From Acidobacteriaceae bacterium (GTDB lineage Bacteria; Acidobacteriota; Terriglobia; Bryobacterales; Bryobacteraceae): a DNA stretch of 32,971 bases. The notes beneath the pieces are model-generated. The model had not been told where the DNA came from. It was given only the letters and a program-made list of their open reading frames with translations, and made no database searches. The DNA is taken from contig JADCJL010000160.1 of the NCBI GenBank assembly GCA_020247055.1, positions 1 to 32,971 of the forward strand. The letters run 5' to 3'. Position 1 is the first letter of the stretch. Each line of letters opens with the position of its first letter. Positions 1 to 31,099 of this stretch are shown here, one piece after another. The position numbers and the translations under genes were made by a program.

Positions 1-434
1 ATGAACACGGAAAGGGACTTGGCAAAAGCACCGCCCGTTGCCAAACCTACCGACTGAGCCTGCCGGTCAATTTCGCCGATGACCGAACTGAATTCGCTGT
101 TCAGCACGTTGCGATCGCCGGAAAACGTGCCGGAGGCCGATTGCGTCGCCAGTGTCCGGGCACGGTCGAGCAGTCTGCCAATGTTGTTGATGCCGCCGTC
201 GAGCGTCTGCAGCGAACTCAAGCCATCATTGGCGTTGCGGATACCTTGCGACAGCACCGCCTGTTCGCTCCGGAACGAGTTGGCGATCGCCAACCCGGCG
301 GCGTCGTCTCCACTGGCTACCAGTCGCAACCCGGACGTGACGCGGTTGATCGTTCTTCCTTGCGCTTCTGAGGTCTGGCGCAAATACTCCCTCGACTGCA
401 GGGAGGCTACGTTCGTGTTTACACGAAAGGACAT
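1..434 (-). CDS. Flagellin 3 (N-terminal part, cut by window edge)
   Basis: Filament subunit, third of three tandem flagellins. Only the first 144 codons lie in the window; the rest continues beyond position 1. The start MSFRVNTNVASLQSREYL and the following DDAAGLAIANSFRSEQA and IRNANDGLSSLQT stretches are the conserved D0/D1 N-terminal helices of flagellin, nearly identical to those of the two upstream copies. The ATG at 432-434 follows an AAGGAG Shine-Dalgarno sequence that lies in the loop of a perfect small hairpin (435-451). A second GGA hairpin lies at 458-474 and a sigma-28 promoter at 502-527, so this copy has its own transcription start and is likely under CsrA control. Its variable and C-terminal regions cannot be seen. 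Confidence 0.95.
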   Translation of the reverse strand, partial: MSFRVNTNVASLQSREYLRQTSEAQGRTINRVTSGLRLVASGDDAAGLAIANSFRSEQAVLSQGIRNANDGLSSLQTLDGGINNIGRLLDRARTLATQSASGTFSGDRNVLNSEFSSVIGEIDRQAQSVGLATGGAFAKSLSVF

Positions 435-451
435 GTTTCTCTCCTTGAAAC
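435..451 (-). promoter_or_regulatory. Hairpin enclosing the Shine-Dalgarno of flagellin 3; candidate CsrA site
   Basis: On the mRNA strand this reads GTTTC-AAGGAGA-GAAAC: five perfect base pairs with the Shine-Dalgarno AAGGAG and its GGA core in the loop, directly before the ATG. CsrA binds GGA presented in a hairpin loop and blocks the ribosome. The same structure stands before flagellin 1, and csrA is in the same locus. Binding itself is inference. Confidence 0.7.
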
Positions 452-457
452 CAAACT

Positions 458-474
458 CCGGGAATCCTTCCCGG
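458..474 (-). promoter_or_regulatory. Upstream GGA-loop hairpin in flagellin 3 leader; candidate CsrA site
   Basis: On the mRNA strand CCGGGAA-GGA-TTCCCGG has seven perfect base pairs closing on a GGA loop. Its GGA lies 23 nt before the GGA of the Shine-Dalgarno hairpin, a distance a CsrA dimer can bridge. Two sites, one over the ribosome binding site, is the known arrangement in the Bacillus subtilis hag leader. Confidence 0.65.
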
Positions 475-501
475 CCGGCGGGATCGCCGGACATAGTGGT
501 C

Positions 502-527
502 TTATCGGATCAAAGCCTAGAGCTTTA
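502..527 (-). promoter_or_regulatory. Sigma-28 (FliA) type promoter for flagellin 3
   Basis: The minus strand reads TAAA, 15 nt, CCGATAA, which matches the flagellar sigma-28 consensus (TAAA ... GCCGATAA) with a spacer one base shorter than the classical one. Transcription would start near 495, giving a leader of about 60 nt that contains both GGA hairpins. Confidence 0.75.
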
Positions 528-611
528 GTCCGAAGGGAGAGGTAGTAACTATTTTTTATTCCTTGTACCCTCTGGGTGAATAGGCTACAGTCCCGGTGAC
601 GCCGCCGCGGA

Positions 612-659
612 CCGGACTCGTCTGTTCCTCCCCGGACTCGCGTGGCTAGGAGAGTCCGG
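612..659. repeat. Three copies of an 8-bp arm (two direct, one inverted)
   Basis: CCGGACTC occurs at 612-619 and 632-639, and its reverse complement GAGTCCGG at 652-659. The inverted copy can pair perfectly with either direct copy, giving two mutually exclusive hairpins downstream of flagellin 2. There is no T-run after them, so a simple intrinsic terminator is not supported. The rest of the 295-bp gap between flagellins 2 and 3 holds the sigma-28 promoter and leader of flagellin 3 and no gene. Confidence 0.5.
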
Positions 660-729
660 ACGGCCCCGCACCCCGCTCGCCTCCCCGCATGGTGACGAAT
701 CCCGCGGTTTCCCGCTTTGCCTGCCCCCG

Positions 730-3126
730 TTACGCACGCAGCAGCGTCAGTACCTGTTCCGGTGCGGAGTTGGCCTGCGCTAGCGCGGCAACTCCGGACC
801 GCAGCAGAATCTGTCCCTTGGTCAGTCTCGCCGCCTCCTCGGCCATGTCCGCATCGCGAATCCGGGACTCCGAGGCGGCCAGATTCGTCAGTTGGGACTG
901 CGCCAGATTCAGCGCGTACGTAAACCGGTTCTGTCCGCGCCCTACCACGGCCTGCGCCGCTCCCACTCTGGTGGTGGCTTCACCGAGAGCCATCAGCGCA
1001 TCCTCGGCTCCCTCCCGCGTCAGAACGGAGGCGGGAAGGGAGCTTCCCTCGAGGGCCGCAGTGACGATCGTGCCCTGACCGCCAATCCCCGTTCCCCCCG
1101 CATTCGTTCCGATACTGACGTTGAAGGAAGACAGGTTGCTGATCAGCCGGATCCCGTCCGGCCCGGCGGTCGTCGCCTTGTCCTTGATTGCGATGATCTG
1201 GCGCAGCGTCGCGTTGTTGGACTGCTGAAGGGCGTTGTTGATGGCCTGCACCGCTTCGTCCACCGTACCGGCGTTCCGGCCGGTGGTGTCGTTGCGCAGC
1301 ACCAGCGCCATCGACTGGTCCACGCCGGCCGGATCGATCGCCGTCACGGTGATCGTCTGGTCATCCCCGCCATTCCGGATCGGAGAGAAACTCAGCAGAC
1401 CGGTCTGTTGCAGACCTCCGGCGGCGAAGGCGTGATTTTGCGTGCCTGCTGGCGGGATCTCGGCAACATCGGCAACGCCGTTCGCCGGCGCCCCTCCGCG
1501 ATCATTGAAGCCGAAAACGTTGGTCGTCCCCACCGAGTTCAACCGGAACCGCGATCCGTTCGTGCTGGTAATCGTAATCGCCGCACCATCGTTGCTCGCT
1601 ACCAGGCCCGCTGCCGCGGTTTGGCTGTTACTGGCAAACGCCGCATTAAGCGCTGTGGTAGCGCCATCGATGCCGGCCGCCGCCGGGGTCAGGGAAAACG
1701 CCACCTTGGCGCCTCCGCCGATCGAGAACTCCAGCGTCTCCGGAGCCGCGGCGAATGTGCCGGCGGCGCCCGTGATCGTTGCGTAGTCAAAGCTCCCGCC
1801 CGCTCCCGCAGAACCCTGGTAGGAACCCAGGGCAAAGAGGTTGTTGACGTCACCGGAGGTCAAAACCTCGAAACGCTCTCCCCGCGTGTTTCCAAACGTC
1901 ATCGGCGTTCCGGCGGTCGTCGTCAGCACCGTCAGACCGGCCCCCTGGAGCGCTGCATTGCCGGCCACCGCCAACCGCAGACTGGCGAGCGCCTCAGTAA
2001 TCGTCGTCGTCGCCGCCACCGGTATGCCGACATCGACAGGAGAAGCCAGGCTCGAACCCTGAAAGCGGAACGTAACCGTCCCCGCGCCCGTGGCCCCAAA
2101 CGTCGTGCCCGCCGCCGCGATGTTGCCGCTCGTCGTAAACACGTTGCCCAGCGTCCGGCCGGTCGGATTCGAACTCGACGTCACGTTGCCCAGCAGGGCG
2201 TTGGCGAGGCGGTCCCCGGCCGTCACCTGAAAGGCGACCGAAGGCGAACTGAAGCTCAGCGATTTCCGCCCCGTGCTGTCGGTAAGGACCGCCGCCCGGA
2301 TGCCAGCATTTTCAAACGAGGTCGCCTGCTGGGAGGTCGGCTGGGCGGCCGCTGTGATCGCGGCGTTTATATTGCCCACCAGTTGGTCAACCGTGGTGAC
2401 GCCCGCCAGGTTCACTGAGACCTTGATCCTCTCACCCCCGGCAAATCCCGGACCGCGAAAGAAGAATTCGGTAAACCCGGTCACCGTATTGGAAGCGCGG
2501 TTGGCCGAGTTCGCCAATATCGCCTGGACGCTCGTACCCGGCGAACCGGGCCCGATATCGACCGTACCGATTCCTTGGGCCTGAACGCGGTTCAAGCCCA
2601 GGCTCTTGGTGTCGACCGCCGCATTGGCGAGATCCAACACCACCGATCCGTTACTGGACGCCGCATCGCGGTCCAATCCCCGGCCCCCGCCCACAAAAAC
2701 GGCGAAGGAACGCGCAAACTTTCCGCCCGTGGACAGTCCCATCGCCTGGGCCTGACGATCGATCTCGCCGAGAACGGCGGCGAACTCCCCTTGCAGGACG
2801 CCGCGGTCCCCGCGGAAGGTTCCCGAGGCCGACTGAGCCGCCAGCGTCCGGGCCCGGTCGAGCAAACCGTTAATGTTCCGGAGCCCGCCGTCGAGCGTCT
2901 GCAGGGTGCTCAAGCCATCGTTGGCGTTGCGCAGTCCCTGGGTAAGCATCGCCTGATCACTGCGCGACCCGTTGGCGATCGCCAAACCCGCTGCATCATC
3001 CCCGCTGGCGAGAATGCGAAGTCCGGAGGTGAGCCGGCCGACTGCTTTTCCTTGTGTCTCCGAAGTGCCGCGCAAGTAGTCCATCGAAAACTGCGAGGCA
3101 ACGTTGGTATTGACGCGGAATGACAT
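730..3126 (-). CDS. Flagellin 2 (long, 798 aa)
   Basis: Filament subunit. The N-terminal D0/D1 part (about residues 1-145, DDAAGLAIANGSRSDQA, LRNANDGLSTLQTLDGG) and the C-terminal D1/D0 part (about 705-798, ending SAPEQVLTLLRA, with ESRIRDADMAEEAARLTK) are typical flagellin ends. Between them lie about 550 residues, far more than in the 495-aa Salmonella FliC, arranged as about four beta-rich modules that align with those of flagellin 1. The start is fixed by homology to the sister copies (MSFRVNTN). Unlike them, the sequence just before the ATG (GCGTTACCACC) has no Shine-Dalgarno match and no GGA hairpin. It lies 77 nt after the stop of flagellin 1, so it is probably co-transcribed and either weakly or unusually translated. 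Confidence 0.96.
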   Translation of the reverse strand: MSFRVNTNVASQFSMDYLRGTSETQGKAVGRLTSGLRILASGDDAAGLAIANGSRSDQAMLTQGLRNANDGLSTLQTLDGGLRNINGLLDRARTLAAQSASGTFRGDRGVLQGEFAAVLGEIDRQAQAMGLSTGGKFARSFAVFVGGGRGLDRDAASSNGSVVLDLANAAVDTKSLGLNRVQAQGIGTVDIGPGSPGTSVQAILANSANRASNTVTGFTEFFFRGPGFAGGERIKVSVNLAGVTTVDQLVGNINAAITAAAQPTSQQATSFENAGIRAAVLTDSTGRKSLSFSSPSVAFQVTAGDRLANALLGNVTSSSNPTGRTLGNVFTTSGNIAAAGTTFGATGAGTVTFRFQGSSLASPVDVGIPVAATTTITEALASLRLAVAGNAALQGAGLTVLTTTAGTPMTFGNTRGERFEVLTSGDVNNLFALGSYQGSAGAGGSFDYATITGAAGTFAAAPETLEFSIGGGAKVAFSLTPAAAGIDGATTALNAAFASNSQTAAAGLVASNDGAAITITSTNGSRFRLNSVGTTNVFGFNDRGGAPANGVADVAEIPPAGTQNHAFAAGGLQQTGLLSFSPIRNGGDDQTITVTAIDPAGVDQSMALVLRNDTTGRNAGTVDEAVQAINNALQQSNNATLRQIIAIKDKATTAGPDGIRLISNLSSFNVSIGTNAGGTGIGGQGTIVTAALEGSSLPASVLTREGAEDALMALGEATTRVGAAQAVVGRGQNRFTYALNLAQSQLTNLAASESRIRDADMAEEAARLTKGQILLRSGVAALAQANSAPEQVLTLLRA

Positions 3127-3203
3127 GGTGGTAACGCGAAACGGATACTCTTGTTCTGCTCAAGGCGGGCTTTCTGGTCCGGGCTGTGGGCTTACGCCGT
3201 TGC

Positions 3204-5588
3204 CTACTGCCGCAGCAGGGATAGGACCTGTTCCGGCGCCGAGTTCGCCTGGGCCAGCGCGGAAACACCAGCCTGGAGAAGGATCTGTGCCTTGGTCAGA
3301 TTCGCCGCCTCCTCGGCCAGATCGGCATCGCGGATCCGGGACTCAGCGGCCGCCAGATTTGTCAACTGACTGGATGCCAGATTCACCGCGAAGTTGAACT
3401 GATTCTGTCCGCGGCCCACCACGGCTTGTGCCTGCCCGAGCGAGACAACTGCCTCCGCGAGCGCGGAAACCGCCGACTGCGCGCTCTCCTGCGTGGCGAT
3501 GCTGGCGGTCGCTCCCGCCCCCGTGGTCGCTGACGCCACCACCGTGCCCTGCAATCCCAAGCCGGTACCTCCGGCGTTGGTGCCGACGGCCACCTTAAAC
3601 GAGTTCAATGTGCTGACAAACTGAATCCCTTCCGCACCCGCCGCTGACGTCTTCGCCTTCACCGCAAAGACTTTCTGCAGCGTCGAGTTGTTCGATTGGT
3701 TCAGTGCCGTGTTGATCGCGGTGATCGCTTCGTCCACGGTGCCCGCGTTGCGCACCGAGTCGTTGCGCAGGACGATGGCCAGCGACTGCTCCGGATCGCC
3801 GTTCTCGGCCGCCGTCAGTGTAATGGTCTGGTCATCGCCGCCGTTGCGAATCGCCGTAAATGGTATCAGGGCCGTCTGCTGGGTACCCCCGGAGATAAAC
3901 TGATTCACGGTCGTGTTGCCCGCCTGGACCTCGGCGGCATCTACTACTCCTGTTGCGCCAACCGGATTGAAGCCATAGACGTTGGCGGCTCCGATGGTTG
4001 CCACTCGAAAGCGGGTGCTGCTGCTGCTGCTGATCGTGATGTTCGTGCCATCGTTCGTCGCCACGAGGCCCGCCGCCGCCAGCGAGGAGTTGCCCGCGAT
4101 GGCCGCGTTCAGCCCCTGGGTGGCGCCGGCGATGGTGGCCGCCGTCGGGGTGACGGCCAGCGAGATGGTCGGGCCACCCCCGAGAGAGAACTCCAGGGTC
4201 TGTGGCGCGGCCGCAAACGTACCGGCGGATCCGGTGATCGAAGTGTAGTCAAACGAACCGGTGGCGCCTCCGGAAGACCGGAAGCTGCCCAGCCCGAGCT
4301 GGTTGTTCAGGTCGCCCGAGACCTGGACTTCAAAACGCTCCCCGCGGGCGCTGCTGAACACCAGCGCCGATCCGGGCGTGGTGGACGTGGTCCGTATGCC
4401 CGCCAACTGTAGCCCGGCGTTAGCGCCCACGGCGGTGGACAGATTCGCCAGAGCTTGGTCAATGGTCGTGCCCGCGGCCACCGTCAGGGCAATGTCGACC
4501 GGAGAAGCCAGTCCGGCGCCCTGGAATCGAACGGTTACCGTGCCGGCGCCCGACGCCCCAAACGTCGTACCCGTCGCCGCCGTGGCGCTGCCTCCGGTTA
4601 CCGTGTTCGCCAGGGTCGTCCCCGTCGGATTCGATGCCGAGGTCACATTTCCAAGCAGCGCGTTTGCCGTCTGGTCCCCCGCCGCTACCTGGAATGCCGA
4701 GTTGGCCGAGGAGAATGCCAGCGAACGCTTGCCGTCCGCTGCGGTGATCACCGAAGCTCGCAGGTTGGCATTCTGGAACGCCGTCGCGGCGGGGCTCACC
4801 ACCTGTCCGGCCGTCTGAATCGCGGAGTTGATCGCTACGACGAGGTTATCAGCGTTCGTCACGCCCGAAAGGTTTACTGATACCTTCACCCGGTCGGCTC
4901 CCCCGAACCCGGGCCCGCGGAAGAAGAAATCAGTGAACCCCGCCGCGGCATTCGAACTCAGGTTGGTCGGGTCGTTGATAATCGCCGCCACGCTCGTGTT
5001 CGCCGATCCTGTGCCGATGTCAATGCTGGGCACTCCCTGCGCCTGGGACCCCTTCAATCCCAGGCTCTTGGCATCGACCGTCGAGTTCGACAGATCCACC
5101 CGCGAAGCGCCGTTCTGAATCGCGTTGATTCCGTTGGAGCTCTTGCCGCCGCCCACGAAAACGGAGAGCGAACGGGCAAACTCACCGCCTGTGTTCAATC
5201 CAATCGATTGCGCTTGGCGATCGATTTCGTTGATCACGCTCGAAAACTCGCTGTTGAGAACCTCGCGGCTTCCCGTGAACGTACCGGAGGCGGACTGCGT
5301 GGCAAGCGTCCTTGCCCGGTCGAGCAGTTTACTGATGTTGTTGATGCCGCCGTCGATCGTTTGCAGCGTACTCAATCCATCGTTGGCGTTACGGATACCC
5401 TGTTGGAGCACCGCCTGGTCACTGCGGAAGCTGTTGGCGATCGACAGTCCGGCCGCGTCGTCTCCGCTCGAAAGGATGCGCAGGCCAGAGGTGACCCGTC
5501 CGATGGCTTTACCCTGCTGCTCCGTGGTCGTCCGCAGGTATTCCCGCGATTGCAGCGAGGCGATATTCGTATTGATGCGAAAAGACAT
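3204..5588 (-). CDS. Flagellin 1 (long, 794 aa)
   Basis: Filament subunit, first of three tandem copies. Residues 1-145 are the D0/D1 N-terminal helices (MSFRINTNIASLQSREYL, SGDDAAGLSIANSFRS, IRNANDGLSTLQTIDGG). Residues about 700-794 are the C-terminal helices (VVGRGQNQFNFAVNLASSQ, ESRIRDADLAEEAANLTK, PEQVLSLLRQ). The central part contains four modules (roughly 215-310, 348-440, 460-545, 570-680) with recurring beta-strand plus helix patterns resembling Flagellin_IN-type surface repeats. The ATG follows AAGGAG, which sits in the loop of a perfect hairpin. A further GGA hairpin lies upstream. No sigma-28 box is visible in the 137-nt gap after csrA, so transcription probably comes from fliW-csrA or farther upstream. 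FliW is expected to bind the C-terminal helix. Confidence 0.96.
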   Translation of the reverse strand: MSFRINTNIASLQSREYLRTTTEQQGKAIGRVTSGLRILSSGDDAAGLSIANSFRSDQAVLQQGIRNANDGLSTLQTIDGGINNISKLLDRARTLATQSASGTFTGSREVLNSEFSSVINEIDRQAQSIGLNTGGEFARSLSVFVGGGKSSNGINAIQNGASRVDLSNSTVDAKSLGLKGSQAQGVPSIDIGTGSANTSVAAIINDPTNLSSNAAAGFTDFFFRGPGFGGADRVKVSVNLSGVTNADNLVVAINSAIQTAGQVVSPAATAFQNANLRASVITAADGKRSLAFSSANSAFQVAAGDQTANALLGNVTSASNPTGTTLANTVTGGSATAATGTTFGASGAGTVTVRFQGAGLASPVDIALTVAAGTTIDQALANLSTAVGANAGLQLAGIRTTSTTPGSALVFSSARGERFEVQVSGDLNNQLGLGSFRSSGGATGSFDYTSITGSAGTFAAAPQTLEFSLGGGPTISLAVTPTAATIAGATQGLNAAIAGNSSLAAAGLVATNDGTNITISSSSSTRFRVATIGAANVYGFNPVGATGVVDAAEVQAGNTTVNQFISGGTQQTALIPFTAIRNGGDDQTITLTAAENGDPEQSLAIVLRNDSVRNAGTVDEAITAINTALNQSNNSTLQKVFAVKAKTSAAGAEGIQFVSTLNSFKVAVGTNAGGTGLGLQGTVVASATTGAGATASIATQESAQSAVSALAEAVVSLGQAQAVVGRGQNQFNFAVNLASSQLTNLAAAESRIRDADLAEEAANLTKAQILLQAGVSALAQANSAPEQVLSLLRQ

Positions 5589-5605
5589 GTTTCACTCCTT
5601 GAAAC
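5589..5605 (-). promoter_or_regulatory. Hairpin enclosing the Shine-Dalgarno of flagellin 1; candidate CsrA site
   Basis: On the mRNA strand GTTTCA-AGGAG-TGAAAC has six perfect base pairs with the whole Shine-Dalgarno in the five-base loop, ending one base before A of ATG. It is the counterpart of the hairpin before flagellin 3, with loop and stem edge slightly changed but pairing kept, which suggests the structure itself is selected. Confidence 0.72.
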
Positions 5606-5636
5606 AGCTCCGGCGGGGGCCAGAGGATGGGGGATG

Positions 5637-5652
5637 CGGGAATCCATTCCCG
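5637..5652 (-). promoter_or_regulatory. Upstream GGA-loop hairpin in flagellin 1 leader; candidate CsrA site
   Basis: On the mRNA strand CGGGAA-TGGA-TTCCCG has six perfect base pairs with GGA in the loop, 47 nt before the GGA of the Shine-Dalgarno hairpin. The stem matches that of the upstream hairpin of flagellin 3. A neighbouring TTCCCGGGAA self-complementary stretch could compete for the same bases. Confidence 0.62.
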
Positions 5653-5725
5653 GGAACGCAGTTCACCCGTTGCTGCGGTAAGCTGCCTCTCAGTCGTTGT
5701 TCTGTTGCGGGGAACCGATGACGCT

Positions 5726-6046
5726 TCAGGAGTGGCGTTTCGGTTGAAGGACAGGGGGAAGGGATTTTTCAAGCGACCCGGGTGTCGCCGTTTCCGGCAA
5801 TGCCAGGACCATTCCGTTGGCCCGGTACTGCTCGGCCAACGTATTCAATTTGTCATCTACTGCCGGCGAGCCGGAAGCAGCGCGGTTCAACTCGCGGGTC
5901 ACGAGGATCTCTTTCCTCAGCACCGCGACGGTTTTCGGAGCACGGATCCCCAGCTTTACCTGCGTCGGGGAGGTCTCCAGAATCTCAATCTCGACATCAT
6001 CACCCACCGTGATGGACTCGCCGCGTCGTCGCCGGATGATCAGCAC
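5726..6046 (-). CDS. csrA: Carbon storage regulator CsrA with long C-terminal tail
   Basis: RNA-binding post-transcriptional regulator. The N-terminal 55 residues show the CsrA fold: MLIIRRRRGESITVGDDVEI, then QVKLGIRAPKTVAVLRKEI, with the conserved GExhhhGD and IxAPKxVxVxRxE patterns. At 106 aa it is much longer than usual (about 60-80). Residues 60-106 form a tail with a helical stretch (DDKLNTLAEQYRANGM) followed by a proline- and basic-rich end. The GTG start at 6044-6046 lies inside the 3' end of fliW, so the two genes overlap by 7 nt and are probably translationally coupled. Position between fliW and the flagellins points to control of flagellin synthesis by GGA hairpins in their leaders. 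Confidence 0.95.
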   Translation of the reverse strand: MLIIRRRRGESITVGDDVEIEILETSPTQVKLGIRAPKTVAVLRKEILVTRELNRAASGSPAVDDKLNTLAEQYRANGMVLALPETATPGSLEKSLPPVLQPKRHS

Positions 6047-6528
6047 TCTGCGTCTCCCGCGGCAGCCAGAGCCGCGGCGCGTCCCTCTTCAGACTCCGCC
6101 CGCGCCGTCCGCAGCGGATGAACCGCTGAGTACTTCGTGTCCTCGCGGATCGCCTGCACGCCCCGCATTGTATCGCGGGAGAGCACCACCGGTCCCAGCA
6201 GGTTCGCCGTCGGCGCCGCATCCTGCGGCATGCAGACGATGGCCAGACAGGCCAGACTGCTCTCCATCTGGGCTAACCCCAGGGCCCGCAGGTCCTCGGC
6301 GGCCAGATCCAGTTGATAGTCCGGCTCTACCGCCTTCGCCGGCAGCGTAATGAAGCAGACTCCCGGATCATCGATACTTTGCAGGAACGTAATCGGCCGC
6401 AGACTCGGGCGCTCCACGCAGACGAAGTGACGGAGATGTTCAAACCCCGGTATCCCTTCCGGGAACTCAAAGATCGCGTCGTCACTGTAGTGAAGCGTTC
6501 CAAATTGCTGAGTGTCTATCGTCGCCAT
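6040..6528 (-). CDS. fliW: Flagellar assembly factor FliW
   Basis: Small cytoplasmic protein that binds flagellin and antagonises CsrA, so that flagellin mRNA is translated once free flagellin has been exported. The 162-aa product shows the family pattern TxxFGxLxYxDDxIxxFPEGIPGFExLRxF near the N-terminus, then PITFLQSIDDPGVCFITLPA and a LxCLAIVxMP strand. An in-frame frame continues 30 codons upstream, but family alignment and an AAGGA just before the ATG at 6526-6528 support the start MATIDTQQFG. It precedes and overlaps csrA by 7 nt; fliW-csrA-flagellin is the classical partner-switch arrangement. Confidence 0.94.
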   Translation of the reverse strand: MATIDTQQFGTLHYSDDAIFEFPEGIPGFEHLRHFVCVERPSLRPITFLQSIDDPGVCFITLPAKAVEPDYQLDLAAEDLRALGLAQMESSLACLAIVCMPQDAAPTANLLGPVVLSRDTMRGVQAIREDTKYSAVHPLRTARAESEEGRAAALAAAGDAEC

Positions 6529-6556
6529 AGTCCTTAGGTAGGCCCGATCCTTGATC

Positions 6557-6582
6557 GCATCGGATCTTCTCCGAACGATTTC
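6557..6582 (-). promoter_or_regulatory. Possible sigma-28-like promoter before fliW
   Basis: The minus strand reads GAAA, 15 nt, CCGATGC, with one mismatch to TAAA and two to CCGATAA, using the same spacer as the better sigma-28 box before flagellin 3. Transcription would start about 20 nt before the fliW ATG. The match is moderate and could be chance. Confidence 0.35.
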
Positions 6583-6619
6583 TTGGCCCTGCCAGTCTAT
6601 CGTCGGCCCCCTCGGCACA

Positions 6620-6637
6620 CTTCACGAAATTGTGAAG
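6620..6637. promoter_or_regulatory. Palindrome between glpD and fliW
   Basis: CTTCAC-GAAATT-GTGAAG is a perfect 6-bp inverted repeat with a partly symmetric centre, in the 143-bp gap between glpD and fliW. On the minus strand the T-run (CTTTTT) comes before the stem, not after it, so it is not an intrinsic terminator for glpD. An operator is possible. No other feature except the possible fliW promoter is visible in this gap. Confidence 0.35.
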
Positions 6638-6671
6638 AAAAAGCGAACAAAACACCCCCGGATTATCCCGA

Positions 6672-8126
6672 TCAACCCCCCGGGAAAAGCTCTTCCCGAT
6701 AGCGCTGAGCCCTGTCCGCCTCGCTCCAATACCGTTCCAGCTCCCCCTGCTGCTCCGCCGGTCCCCACCCAAGCACCTCTCCCATGATCTGAGCGACCGT
6801 CTCGGCTTCCCCCCGGCCCTGGTCGGCCGCAAACGCCCCCGGGCGCCGCCGCAGCAGGTAATCGGCGACATGGCGGCAGTGCTCCCGCTCAATGGCCCAC
6901 CGCACCGCCTCGGCGTTCTCGGTCGGTGGGGGTGACCCGGCGCCGGGCAGCAGCTCCCGATGACTGCGGCATGGCTCACGGTTTCCCAACTGCAGGCACG
7001 CCGCGTCCACCGCCTCCTCGGCAATCGCGCGGTAGCCGGTAATCTTGCCCCCCAAAACAGAGATCATCCCCGGTTGTGTCTCCGTAATCGAGTGCATGCG
7101 CGAGACTGAAGAGGCCGAACCCTCCTGCCGGACCAGCGCGCGCACCCCGGCGTTGGTCGAGTAGATGGCCAACCGCCGTACCTCCGGGAAAAATGGCTCC
7201 ACCGACCGCAGCAGATACTCCACATCCTCGCCATCGGCTCGCACCGCGCCCGGATCCTCCGAAAAATCGGTATCCGTGGTTCCAATCCAGCACTGGCCCA
7301 GCAGGGGAATCACAAAGAACAGACGCCCATCGACCGGCGAAAACAGCACATTGGCCTTCCGGTTCATCGGCTCACAGGTAAGATGAATCCCCTTGGTCGT
7401 CCGGATCCGCGGCGGATGCTCATCGCCGGTTTGTCGCGCCACCCGGTCAAACCACGCTCCGGTCGCATTGACGAATACCTTCGCGCGCACCTCGCCGGTC
7501 GCCCCGCTTTCGGCGCAGCGCAGGCGCAGCGCCTGCACCCGGCCGCTCTCGCTGATGGCCCCCACCACTTCGGTGTAGGATCGCACTACCGCCCCGTGCT
7601 GTTCGGCGTCCATCACATTCTCCAGGCACAGCCGCTCCGGCATCGCCACCTGGGCGTCATAGTAAGCCGCCGCCCCCTGCAGTCCTTCCACCCGCAGCGT
7701 CGGCTCTTCAGCCAGCGTCTCCGCCGCGGACAGCATCCGGTGATTCGGCAGGCTCTTGTCAAAGCTCAGCAGGTCATACAGCATCATGCCGATCCGCATC
7801 TTCAACCGGAACCACGGCGAGGCCCCGTAGAACGGGATCAGGAACTCGAGTGGTTTGACCAGATGCGGCGCAATCCGCAACAGAATCTCCCGCTCCCGCA
7901 GGTCCATCCGCACCAGCCCGAAATCAAACATCTCCAGATAGCGCAGACCGCCGTGAATCAGGCGCGTCGAACCCGACGTCGTTCCCCCTCCAAAATCCCC
8001 CTTCTCGACCAGCGCCACCGACAACCCCCGTAGCGCGGCATCCCGCGCCACCCCGGCCCCGATGATCCCTCCGCCAATCACCGCAACGTCAAACGTCCGG
8101 TCCGTGAGCTTGCTGAGTGGCTGCAT
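6672..8126 (-). CDS. glpD: FAD-dependent glycerol-3-phosphate dehydrogenase
   Basis: Oxidises sn-glycerol 3-phosphate to dihydroxyacetone phosphate at the membrane and passes electrons to quinone. The 484-aa protein begins with the FAD-binding Rossmann motif (VIGGGIIGAG at residues 16-25, then VALVEKGDFGGGTTSGSTRLIHGGLRYLE split over 35-65), the signature of the GlpD family. WIGTTDTDFS and the C-terminal domain with CRSHRELLPGAG are also present. Length is close to the 501-aa Escherichia coli GlpD. It starts 10 bp after the stop of rsmI on the same strand, with GAGAG before the ATG, so the two are probably one transcript. No glycerol kinase or facilitator is nearby, so the link to rsmI is probably only transcriptional. 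Confidence 0.95.
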   Translation of the reverse strand: MQPLSKLTDRTFDVAVIGGGIIGAGVARDAALRGLSVALVEKGDFGGGTTSGSTRLIHGGLRYLEMFDFGLVRMDLREREILLRIAPHLVKPLEFLIPFYGASPWFRLKMRIGMMLYDLLSFDKSLPNHRMLSAAETLAEEPTLRVEGLQGAAAYYDAQVAMPERLCLENVMDAEQHGAVVRSYTEVVGAISESGRVQALRLRCAESGATGEVRAKVFVNATGAWFDRVARQTGDEHPPRIRTTKGIHLTCEPMNRKANVLFSPVDGRLFFVIPLLGQCWIGTTDTDFSEDPGAVRADGEDVEYLLRSVEPFFPEVRRLAIYSTNAGVRALVRQEGSASSVSRMHSITETQPGMISVLGGKITGYRAIAEEAVDAACLQLGNREPCRSHRELLPGAGSPPPTENAEAVRWAIEREHCRHVADYLLRRRPGAFAADQGRGEAETVAQIMGEVLGWGPAEQQGELERYWSEADRAQRYREELFPGG

Positions 8127-13701: not shown

Positions 13702-14673
13702 TTAGGTCAGTAGACCACCGTGTCCCAGACAGGCGATCTCCCATCCCGAGATGCGGTATCGCGCCAGCAGCGCCGGCAAAATCAGATCCACCACATTGGT
13801 CTTCGCCGAACGGAAACACCCCGGCGCCGACACAATCGGAATCTCGTCCTTATAACCCATCAACAGCAGACTGCCCGGCTCCACCGGAGCCAGAAACCGC
13901 TCCAGGTGACAGCCAATCCGCAACATCGCCCTTCCAATCACATCCTCCGGACCCGCCGGCGCCGTCGTCGACGCCACCAGAATCACCGAAGGTTTCGCCC
14001 GCACCAGGTGCTGCAGCGCCCGCACCACCGCAGACTCCTCCTCAAGGGCGCTCAATACAAAGTTGGAGGACGTTCCAAACCGCTCCAGCCGCTGCCGCAT
14101 CACGTTCTCAAACAGCTGCCGCGCCCGGTCTCCCGCCACCGGATCCGAATACAAAACCGCCGCCTGCGGATCCTGCAGCGGCCTCGCCTGCAGAATCGGC
14201 CCCCGCTCCCGCAAAATCGAAATCACCGCCTCAAGCTCCGGAGCCGCCACCGCAAACGGCGTCGATTTGATCGTCGCCACCCGCTGGCCCGCCTGCGCAA
14301 AACTGAAGTTCGCCAGCGTTGCAATCACAATCGACGCCGTGCAGTTGATCTGCTTCAGCAACTCATCATCGATCAACACGCAACAGTCCCGCGTCGCCAC
14401 CAGATTCGCCCGTCCGCCCGCCGCCGGCCGGATCTCTAACGAGCCGCAGCCGATCGCCGTCGCAACCTGCATCACGGCCTCGTCTTCGCCAATCTCTCCT
14501 TCATCGAGCGCGGTGACCCAGACCTCGGCCATCCCCTCCGTCTCCAACAACCGCACATCTTCATCGCTCAAGATGTGTCCCTTCGCCAAAAGCTTCTTGC
14601 CGCCCGGACGAAAGATCGTGCAGCAGAGAATGCGCCCGGTGGACTCACGGACATCGACGGTCAGAGCCTTCAT
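13702..14673 (-). CDS. Molybdopterin-binding domain protein (MoaB/Mog/MoeA-like)
   Basis: The 323-aa product resembles the family annotated as molybdopterin-binding proteins that carry a MoCF-like domain. The C-terminal half (about 175-323) has SVILVASTTAPAGPEDVIGRA, then EPGSLLLMGYKDEIPIVSAPGCFRS and a NVVDLILPALLARY helix, ending with LGHGGLL. The N-terminal part (MKALTVDVRESTGRILCC) has a conserved opening with LAKGHILSDEDVRLLE at 30-45, as in MoeA-like N-terminal domains. Role in molybdenum cofactor handling is inference from family membership; no molybdoenzyme or other moa/moe gene is adjacent. There is no clear Shine-Dalgarno before the ATG at 14671-14673. A promoter with a perfect TATAAT and a palindrome lies upstream. 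Confidence 0.72.
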   Translation of the reverse strand: MKALTVDVRESTGRILCCTIFRPGGKKLLAKGHILSDEDVRLLETEGMAEVWVTALDEGEIGEDEAVMQVATAIGCGSLEIRPAAGGRANLVATRDCCVLIDDELLKQINCTASIVIATLANFSFAQAGQRVATIKSTPFAVAAPELEAVISILRERGPILQARPLQDPQAAVLYSDPVAGDRARQLFENVMRQRLERFGTSSNFVLSALEEESAVVRALQHLVRAKPSVILVASTTAPAGPEDVIGRAMLRIGCHLERFLAPVEPGSLLLMGYKDEIPIVSAPGCFRSAKTNVVDLILPALLARYRISGWEIACLGHGGLLT

Positions 14674-28902: not shown

Positions 28903-29146
28903 CCCAGCCCGCGACGAACCGCCGCACACGCTACCGTCTCGCTACTGGGGATAGAGGGAAAACAACTTGGGATATTACAAAATTCCCATTGAAAAATGAA
29001 CCTTCCTGCCCAGAGCAATTGCTGAAACCGGCTGGTACTCTGAGACTGCCCAACCAAACTGAGCTGTTCTTTGCATCCTCCGATTCGGCGCGAAGCCGGC
29101 GTAAGTCCTCGGGTAAGGGCTATCTTTACATTAAAGGGTTCCGTTG
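28903..29146. other. Intergenic region before the subtilisin gene
   Basis: This 244-bp stretch is markedly lower in GC than its surroundings, above all 28950-29070. It contains TGGGA-N11-TCCCA (within 28965-28990) as an imperfect dyad. An 82-codon frame spans it, but its codon use is unlike neighbouring genes, so I do not call it. No convincing promoter is visible. AAAGGG at 29133-29138 is the ribosome binding site of the protease gene. Confidence 0.5.
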
Positions 29147-31099
29147 ATGTCCTTCGCCGCCTGTGCGCCCCTTTGGTCGCGTACCGCTGTCACCCTCTGC
29201 CTGGGATTTGCCGGAGTTGTCCTCCCCCTCGCCGGGCAAGAGAGTAAGCTTTCCCCCGATCTGCTCCCTGTTGCCGCCGACGAGGTCGTGGAAGTGATTA
29301 TTCAATTGGAGGACCCGCCGGAAGACCGTGCCGCGGGCCGTCTGCCGGCCGCTTTCCCGCGACCGGCCGCCCTCAGCGCCCGCGGACCCGTGCGGGAGTT
29401 GAACGCTATTCGCGGCCTCGTTACCCGGGTGAACGGCTCCTCCCTCAGCGCCCTCGCCCGCGACCCGCAGGTGAAATACATCTCCCCGAACCGGGAACTC
29501 TCCGCCGCCACGAATTGGGGGACCGCCTCGGTCGGGGCCATCAGTCTGCAGGCAAAGGGCTTCAAGGGTCGTGGTGTCGGCGTCGCCGTGATCGACAGTG
29601 GCGTCGTTGCTCATCCGGATTTGGACGGGACTGCTTGCAACAACGTCTCGCGCCTGACCTACTTTGAGGATTTCGTCCAGACTTTAAGCACTTTCAGGAC
29701 GGCATCCACCGATCCTTACGGGCACGGCACGGCCGTTGCGGGCCTCGTCGCGGGCAACGGTCTCTGTAAGGTGGTTTCGATGGGCTTGGATCGCCAGGCG
29801 ATCGAAAACCAGCCCAACAAGCGGTTAGCCGGGGTGGCGCCGGAGGCAAACATCATCTCTCTTCGCGTGCTTGACGACGAAGGCAAGGGCTTCGATGCCA
29901 ACGTGATCAGGGCCATCGACCGGGCGATCCAATTGAAATCCCAGCACAATATTCGCGTGATCAACCTCTCGCTCGGCCGGCCAGTCTTCGAGAGTTTCTC
30001 TAAAGATCCGCTTTGCCAAGCCGTCGAGCGCGCCTGGAAAGCCGGCATCGTTGTCGTGGTCGCCGCCGGGAATCGGGGCCGCACCGAGTTCCTTACGGAC
30101 AAGAACGGCAAGACCTACCGGATCGACGGCTATGGCACCATCGGCTCTCCAGCGAACGATCCGTTCGTCATCACCGTCGGAGCCATGAACGACAAAGGCA
30201 ACGCGTCTGTCACCGATGATACGATTGCCTCCTACAGTTCGAAAGGTCCTACCGCCATCGACAACTTTGTCAAGCCCGACCTCGTGGCCCCCGGCAACTG
30301 GATCCACTCGACGCGCGGTCCCGGCAATGACGGGCTGTTCGGCAAACTCCTGCGCGATACCTCGGGCGCTATCACAGAAGAACTGGCTTACTGTAAGTCC
30401 ACCGATTACGTCTATAACATCAAATCCAAATCCTGTACCTATCTCTGGTACACGGGAACCTTCTCGGGTCAGTATGCACCAGGGATTGGCGATCCCACCA
30501 CGTCCGGCCCGTACATGTACCTGAGCGGAACCAGCCTGGCCGCGCCGCTCGTCTCCGGGGCCGCCGCCCTGCTCATCGCCAATCAGCCCACCCTCACCCC
30601 GGATGTCGTCAAGGCCAGACTGATGAAATCGGCCCGAAAAACCGGCTTCCCCACCTCGACGACCATTCTCCTCGAGACCGGCAGGAGGCAAACCGTACAG
30701 TACGACATGCTGGCTTTCGGCGCCGGATATCTGGACATCCCTGCCGCCCTCGCCAATACCGATTCCGCTCCGGCGGGCAAGTTTGCGCTCTCCCCAAAGG
30801 TCCTGCGGAGCACTGGAACAGCTTGTAGCATCGTGAACAAACCAACCTGCGTTACCTTGCAGCATGCTGTCAGCTCCCTGTTTACCACCACCGGAACGAT
30901 CTGGGGGAACAAAGCGAGTTGGGGAACCTCGGTGTTGTGGGGCGATAGCGTTCTGTGGGGAGACAGCGTCGTCTGGGGCGACACTACCAGTTCGGGCTAC
31001 AGTCTGCTCTGGGGAGATTCCGTCCTCTGGGGTGACTCGGTCCTCTGGGGCGACAAGTCCATGTTCCCCTTTTCTGTTACCAAGGACGGCGATAAGTAA
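29147..31099 (+). CDS. Secreted subtilisin-like serine protease (S8) with C-terminal WGD repeats
   Basis: The 650-aa protein has a signal peptide (about 1-30, RTAVTLCLGFAGVVLPLAG), an inhibitor-I9-like propeptide (about 45-118, ending RDPQVKYISPNREL) and an S8 domain with Asp150 (VAVIDSG), His193 (YGHGTAVAGL), Asn309 (AAGN) and Ser463 (LSGTSLAAP). An insert of about 60 residues with Cys pairs lies before the serine. The C-terminus (about 585-640) has eight WG motifs, six of them WGD, spaced by six residues (WGDSVL unit) with one 12-residue spacer. Such W-G tails occur in extracellular proteases of Acidobacteria and related phyla; their role is unknown, perhaps attachment or maturation. The ATG at 29147 follows AAAGGG by 8 nt. 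Confidence 0.93.
   Translation: MSFAACAPLWSRTAVTLCLGFAGVVLPLAGQESKLSPDLLPVAADEVVEVIIQLEDPPEDRAAGRLPAAFPRPAALSARGPVRELNAIRGLVTRVNGSSLSALARDPQVKYISPNRELSAATNWGTASVGAISLQAKGFKGRGVGVAVIDSGVVAHPDLDGTACNNVSRLTYFEDFVQTLSTFRTASTDPYGHGTAVAGLVAGNGLCKVVSMGLDRQAIENQPNKRLAGVAPEANIISLRVLDDEGKGFDANVIRAIDRAIQLKSQHNIRVINLSLGRPVFESFSKDPLCQAVERAWKAGIVVVVAAGNRGRTEFLTDKNGKTYRIDGYGTIGSPANDPFVITVGAMNDKGNASVTDDTIASYSSKGPTAIDNFVKPDLVAPGNWIHSTRGPGNDGLFGKLLRDTSGAITEELAYCKSTDYVYNIKSKSCTYLWYTGTFSGQYAPGIGDPTTSGPYMYLSGTSLAAPLVSGAAALLIANQPTLTPDVVKARLMKSARKTGFPTSTTILLETGRRQTVQYDMLAFGAGYLDIPAALANTDSAPAGKFALSPKVLRSTGTACSIVNKPTCVTLQHAVSSLFTTTGTIWGNKASWGTSVLWGDSVLWGDSVVWGDTTSSGYSLLWGDSVLWGDSVLWGDKSMFPFSVTKDGDK

Follow-up and report, generated by a model that had tools for sequence, protein, structure and literature searches.

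Two-hairpin flagellin leaders as predicted CsrA-FliW targets in a Bryobacteraceae genome of the Acidobacteriota

The flaA leader of Campylobacter jejuni carries two stem-loops with AnGGA loops, the second of which lies over the ribosome-binding site; FliW is the antagonist there, and compensatory changes have been noted in sister species (PMC4894983). The hag leader of Bacillus subtilis also has two CsrA sites, one of them over the Shine-Dalgarno (SD) sequence (Yakhnin 2007 and Mukherjee 2011, through PMC7652899), and in the Escherichia coli glgC leader an upstream hairpin site is bridged to a site at the SD, the published distance for two-site bridging being 10–63 with an optimum above 18 (PMC7652899). 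In the full-text literature searched, whose coverage leaves out most subscription papers, no CsrA-FliW flagellin switch is described for Acidobacteriota and nothing was found on CsrA with Bryobacter or on CsrA with Solibacter; Acidobacteria are listed once among groups that may use FliW (PMC4682653). The present analysis concerns the flagellin leaders of a stretch of 32,971 bases (contig JADCJL010000160.1, hereafter the window) from a Bryobacteraceae-type metagenome-assembled genome (MAG) of the Acidobacteriota. On its minus strand fliW and csrA lie directly upstream of flagellin 1, flagellin 2 and the start of flagellin 3, which runs to the contig end (Table 1).

Direct reading of the letters confirmed what the initial annotation had described: the leaders of flagellins 1 and 3 each contain an upstream hairpin with GGA in its loop and a second hairpin that encloses the SD directly before the ATG. 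The pair is thus present in two of the three window flagellin leaders, that of flagellin 2 (window 3127-3203) having neither hairpin and no recognisable SD (GCGTTACCACC-ATG). The leaders of the middle flagellins at loci L065 and L066 resemble the latter. The SD-hairpin pattern GTTTCNAGGANNGAAAC, with at most one mismatch allowed, has two matches in the 32,971 bases, those of flagellins 1 and 3, for a mean of 0.02 in 100 shuffles, and no Rfam covariance model matched window 1-7000 at E values up to 1. The GGA-GGA distance is 44 bases in flagellin 1 and 20 in flagellin 3, both inside the published bridgeable range. The stems had also been said to differ while pairing is kept. Within the window this hardly applies, the stems being nearly identical: both SD stems consist of the same five pairs, a single T/A difference costing flagellin 3 the sixth, and CGGGAA/TTCCCG is common to the two upstream stems. 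Between species the statement stands, by virtue of covariation.

Within the genus the SD stem is almost invariant and so gives little information on pairing. Other genera and families offer SD stems such as AATTC/GAATT, AATAC/GTATT (window of L102) and GCTTC/GAAGC, together with TTTGAA/TTCAAA around another SD, and upstream stems of the CCGGGAA, CGGCTGGA, CTGAAAA and CCGCCGGCA types. Covariation was evaluated in ungapped, centred windows that were selected on inner pairs and counted on the outer four pairs only. For the SD hairpin, 19 distinct 19-base windows selected by C-N-AGGA-NN-G (closing pair only) are 75% paired, with a covariation of 0.428 vs 0.109 when shuffled (reached by 0/500 shuffles) and at most 0.168 in slid registers; for the upstream hairpin, 36 distinct sites selected by three inner pairs around a GGA are 66% paired, with 0.492 vs 0.206 (0/500) and at most 0.243, respectively. 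Three of five measures beat all 500 shuffles for each hairpin; related rows may exceed shuffles without any structure, and the comparison with slid registers is to be preferred as a control. A MAFFT alignment of 21 whole two-hairpin leaders (22 are listed; L063, with the loop UGA, was omitted and a longer piece of L100 was used) is 84.7% paired vs 80.7% shuffled, with a covariation of 0.139 vs 0.092 (0/500); in it further pair types are no better than in shuffles (294/500) and two slid registers exceed it in changes on both sides (13 vs 9). The ungapped windows were adopted because this alignment misregisters some stems. When all SD windows of other genera were taken in a fixed register, with no subtype chosen, pairing showed no clear peak over slid registers, and the SD hairpin is therefore a feature of only some members of the family. 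Preservation of the stems in relatives, which the initial annotation had put forward as a check, is thus borne out in that both hairpins covary across Bryobacteraceae, for an element that is not universal.

The occurrence of the hairpins was surveyed in relatives found through FliW, mostly MAGs labelled Bryobacteraceae, Bryobacterales, Solibacter or Acidobacteria, two near ones carrying the label Candidatus Sulfopaludibacter, and in a class sample of 250 genomes, among which Flagellin_N was found in 136, FliW in 55 and CsrA in 59. A genome was counted as bearing CsrA/FliW from the class-sample search for the sampled genomes, and from a FliW match for the genus and the named loci. Flagellins located behind csrA were designated type A (as flagellin 1), those resembling flagellin 3 type B, and middle flagellins formed a third class. 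One leader set comprised 119 distinct leaders from 163 matches, after removal of duplicates and of pieces shorter than 70 bases; the hairpin scan covered 179 leaders after deduplication on the last 60 bases, rows L100-L159 coming from one search only. With thresholds of at least 5 for the upstream stem score and at least 4 for the SD, both hairpins are present in 36/113 leaders of CsrA/FliW-bearing relatives (23/35 in the genus, 13/78 outside), totals that omit 14 mixed-class rows and the 6 middle flagellins (36/119 with these 6). The controls gave 2/43 for flagellin leaders of genomes lacking both CsrA and FliW and 1/115 for non-flagellin SD-bearing open reading frames (ORFs) of the named loci. 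An upstream hairpin scoring at least 6 occurs in 28/73 leaders of other genera vs 2.7 expected, and in 3/38 leaders of flagellated families without CsrA and FliW vs 1.3 expected. The same scan found both hairpins in 3/3 Bacillus hag leaders, with a GGA-GGA spacing of 18-22; these leaders, from relatives in Bacillus (L227, L228, L231), read TGCAC-atggac-GTGCA and ATTTC-aaggag-GAAAT.

Within the genus, the 15 distinct type-A leaders comprise 8 with both hairpins, 2 with the SD hairpin only and 5 with neither. The SD hairpin is found in every one of the 20 type-B leaders, 15 of which possess an upstream GGA hairpin in addition; some of these upstream hairpins lie at other positions, and the homologous CGGGA-type seen in flagellin 3 was recognised by eye in 11/20, L063 having TGA in the homologous loop. 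A spacing of 20 bases is found in 10 of the 15 type-B leaders listed. The middle hairpin of type-A leaders, which in flagellin 1 has no GGA, has a variable loop, one of its stem pairs being U-G, C-G or U-A, and would be a folded spacer between the sites; at L010 the GGA-GGA spacing is 66 with such a hairpin present twice, as against 44 bases with one.

The whole genome has six Flagellin_N matches, namely the three of the window, two on contig C120 and a 317-aa frame on contig C146 that is presumably a hook-associated protein. The genome was searched with a covariance model built on the compact two-hairpin element, 150 of the 2,530 first-look candidates being scored. Strong matches (E about 5e-15) fall on flagellin 3 and on the first C120 flagellin (E 4.5e-15), while flagellin 1, which has a longer spacer, scores weakly (E 0.16). 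Six other matches are weak (E 0.046 to 7.2), and the five inspected (all but L247) show no start codon behind an SD hairpin of the flagellin kind; as to further CsrA targets, scores among the candidates scored are convincing at flagellin leaders only. The second C120 flagellin has a TGA within its frame and only weak four-pair hairpin matches ahead of it (row L068,L004). The pair of hairpins therefore occurs in three of the five flagellin genes of the genome. The C120 region itself (L068, G000:C120:36500-43916, reverse strand) comprises a flagellin C-terminal part, imperfect repeats, the two-hairpin flagellin and the flagellin frame with the internal stop; the C-terminal part at the contig end is probably the remainder of flagellin 3.

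The window csrA is the sole CsrA match in its genome and adjoins the fliW gene of the same genome. Its product keeps the RNA-binding Arg44, as read in the sequence and in an alignment to 2jpp_A, and has a C-terminal extension that appears to be of the FliW-binding kind, judging from an alignment to 5dmb_D over residues 2-73. The proposal of the initial annotation that these two genes control the flagellins is supported at the level of sequence: genes matching PF02599 and PF02623 adjoin, the hairpins covary, the pair is rare without CsrA and FliW, and it is recovered in every Bacillus hag leader scanned. We consider it very probable that the leaders of flagellin 1, flagellin 3 and one C120 flagellin are two-site CsrA targets, which CsrA would repress and FliW would relieve. 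A CsrA dimer would place one face on the GGA of the upstream hairpin and the other on that of the SD hairpin and so keep the ribosome off; FliW, on binding the CsrA tail, would release the message, and unsecreted flagellin would tie up FliW, closing a feedback loop. Flagellin 2, with neither sites nor SD, would be poorly translated and stand outside this loop.

In predicted folds the SD hairpin of flagellin 1 has a pairing probability of 0.86-0.99 in the 75-base leader and of 0.66-0.76 in an 80-base piece. That of flagellin 3 is weak (-1.9 kcal/mol): it reaches 0.81-0.83 in the 63-base leader taken by itself and about 0 with 15 or more bases of coding sequence appended, owing to pairing of the SD with codons 2-3 instead, and it is also absent from a 75-base piece extended 5'. 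For the window leaders as a whole, fold z-scores (-1.1 to -1.6) are unremarkable. Of the 8 type-A genus leaders with an SD hairpin, 7 show it at a probability of at least 0.5 in 80-base pieces. For Bacillus hag the values are 0.29-0.59, and therefore weak SD hairpins also occur in leaders of known kind.

Several observations weigh against CsrA control of these leaders. Either hairpin is present in 88/113 flagellin leaders, as well as in 33/115 control ORFs and 10/43 CsrA-less leaders, so that a single hairpin means little; an SD hairpin of at least 4 is seen in 7/38 leaders of CsrA-less families vs 2.4 expected, and a strong GGA hairpin in two of five Bryobacteraceae leaders without detected CsrA/FliW (L120, L108). 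At the thresholds used, 20/73 leaders of other genera have neither hairpin, as is the case for 5/15 genus type-A leaders; among the six middle-flagellin leaders of the genus, none carries an SD hairpin (0/6) and one has an upstream hairpin (1/6). A predicted SD hairpin probability of at least 0.5 is found in just 5/20 type-B genus leaders (80-base pieces). Finally, pairs changed on both sides were reached by 143/500 (SD) and 474/500 (upstream) shuffles, further pair types by 68/500 and 87/500, respectively, and several lineages retain the upstream stem without GGA.

This last feature, together with the stability of the flagellin 1 SD hairpin by itself (-4.7 kcal/mol), is what would be expected if the SD hairpin alone acted as an intrinsic brake or a temperature-sensitive lock and the upstream hairpin merely protected the 5' end. 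We regard this as unlikely, since the SD sits in the loop and not in the stem, the hairpin pair tracks CsrA/FliW, and the flagellin 3 stem is weak. The sites might also be real and used in this lineage by another RNA-binding protein or by a small RNA, which would agree with the persistence of stems with AGA, UGA or CGA loops in some lineages and with the GGA hairpins retained in the two CsrA-less leaders; the presence of an Arg44 CsrA beside the targets in the window genome and the fit of the motif to the published AnGGA loop consensus (PMC4894983, PMC6692469) make this improbable. A palindromic protein-binding site in the DNA near promoter or start would equally produce paired changes and is the least credible of all, given that the GGA core lacks symmetry and lies on the coding strand, that the SD repeat is fixed relative to the ATG, and that the sigma-28-like promoter precedes both repeats of flagellin 3.

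The CsrA proteins of the relatives vary at residue 44. By alignment across 133 loci (species may recur), 40 of which lack a flagellin start within their piece, it is Arg in 92, Ala in 36, Met in 3, Ser in 1 and Thr in 1; on the FliW tree the Ala44 rows form one Solibacter-like branch plus L310. The upstream hairpin of the Ala44 clade is typically CCGGC-AAGA(U/A)-GCCGG, and GGA is still present in its SD, as the SD requires. A mechanical scoring of the loop base covered 91 distinct leaders. Those beside Ala44 CsrA (n=24) have AGA in 15 (16 with L301 as re-read), GGA in 2, UGA in 1, CGA in 1 and no hairpin in 5, and those beside Arg44 CsrA have GGA in 30, AGA in 2, CGA in 3, UGA in 1 and none in 31. 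Loci such as L188, L195, L199, L202, L208, L293, L296, L300 and L309 have an Ala44 CsrA adjoining a flagellin with an AGA-loop upstream hairpin; L304 (GGA) and L310 (UGA) are exceptions, and AGA, UGA and CGA loops also occur beside Arg44 CsrA (L104, L211, L336, L177). By eye, a UGA upstream loop was also seen at L117, L123, L212 and L216, with Arg44 in the three that are readable (all but L123). For the tree test L301, L186, L203, L187 and L191 were re-read by eye. Residue 44 needs 3 changes on the FliW tree (supported branches force 1) and the loss of GGA needs 7; repeated co-evolution is represented by one independent pair on supported branches and by three on all branches, and therefore no significance is possible. 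Two further observations concern gene number: genome G185 (C55, C59) has two separate FliW-CsrA sets, one Ala44 and one Arg44, each near a flagellin, and the f5 genomes G059, G087, G094 and G100 have three CsrA matches each vs one or two of FliW.

Replacement of Arg44 by Ala in CsrA destroys regulation in E. coli. Arg44 has been called critical or essential (PMC7652899, PMC7366521, PMC6692469). In the crystal structure of RsmN with RNA, the equivalent side chain contacts the N7 atom of the first G and is stacked against the A of AnGGA; without it affinity falls more than 1,000-fold, yet the same mutant, supplied on a plasmid, complemented a strain lacking rsmA (PMC3791407). The Arg44 of RsmE makes either a backbone contact or a stacking interaction with the A (PMC4005645). 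An N7 is, however, present in adenine too. It is conceivable, as a tentative lead and not a result, that Ala44 CsrA and the AGA loop changed together in the 'Candidatus Solibacter'-like branch, in which fliW, csrA and flagellin have remained neighbours and the upstream hairpin is retained; this might represent a natural shift of specificity at the G that comes first in GGA. With its Arg44-to-Ala change, this clade could serve as a natural experiment on the determinants of CsrA RNA specificity.

Table 1. Features of the flagellin locus in window coordinates
Feature	Position	Strand	Remarks
Flagellin 1 upstream hairpin CGGGAA-TGGA-TTCCCG	5637..5652	-	Loop UGGA; pairing probability 0.35-0.66
Flagellin 1 middle hairpin CTCTGGC-CCCC-GCCGGAG	5608..5625	-	No GGA; pairing probability 0.91-1.0
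Flagellin 1 SD hairpin GTTTCA-AGGAG-TGAAAC	5589..5605	-	Flush with ATG 5588
Flagellin 3 first hairpin CCGGCG-ATCC-CGCCGG	475..490	-	No GGA; pairing probability 0.97-1.0
Flagellin 3 upstream hairpin CCGGGAA-GGA-TTCCCGG	458..474	-	Pairing probability 0.97-1.0; innermost pair 0.56
Flagellin 3 SD hairpin GTTTC-AAGGAGA-GAAAC	435..451	-	Flush with ATG 434
fliW	6040..6528	-	ATG 6528; 3' end overlaps csrA start; PF02623 E 2.4e-28; PDB 5dmb_A (FliW) E 9.2e-13
csrA	5726..6046	-	106 aa; GTG start; PF02599 E 3.1e-18, over cut-off; C-terminal extension
Flagellin 1	3204..5588	-	794 aa; ATG 5588; PF00669 and PF00700
Flagellin 2	730..3126	-	798 aa; ATG 3126; PF00669 and PF00700
Flagellin 3, N-terminal part	3..434	-	ATG 434; leaves contig edge; PF00669 E 2.6e-26
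Sigma-28-like promoter TAAA-N15-CCGATAA, ahead of flagellin 3	502..527	-	1 match; mean 0.01 in shuffles

The promoter in Table 1 is named after the sigma-28 consensus. Elsewhere in the window, positions 29144-31099 of the plus strand encode a protease-like protein, subtilisin-like by eye, with C-terminal LWGDSVLWGDSVVWGD-type repeats, and positions 13702-14673 of the minus strand a 323-aa protein with no Pfam match at E 0.001.

Compared with the described systems, the E. coli glgC leader shares the bridged arrangement and differs in that neither a flagellin nor FliW is involved. B. subtilis hag belongs to another phylum and has a weaker SD stem (-0.8 kcal/mol). The C. jejuni flaA leader is 45 bases long and fliW lies apart from csrA there (PMC4894983), whereas in the genome studied here several flagellins have the hairpin pair, the two sites of flagellin 1 being separated by a further hairpin that lacks GGA. 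In the best reading, the acidobacterial leaders would extend the known CsrA-FliW flagellin switch, with covariation, to Acidobacteriota. The two-hairpin layout is now seen in Bacillota, Campylobacterota and Acidobacteriota, and it can therefore be asked whether it is ancestral or arose repeatedly.

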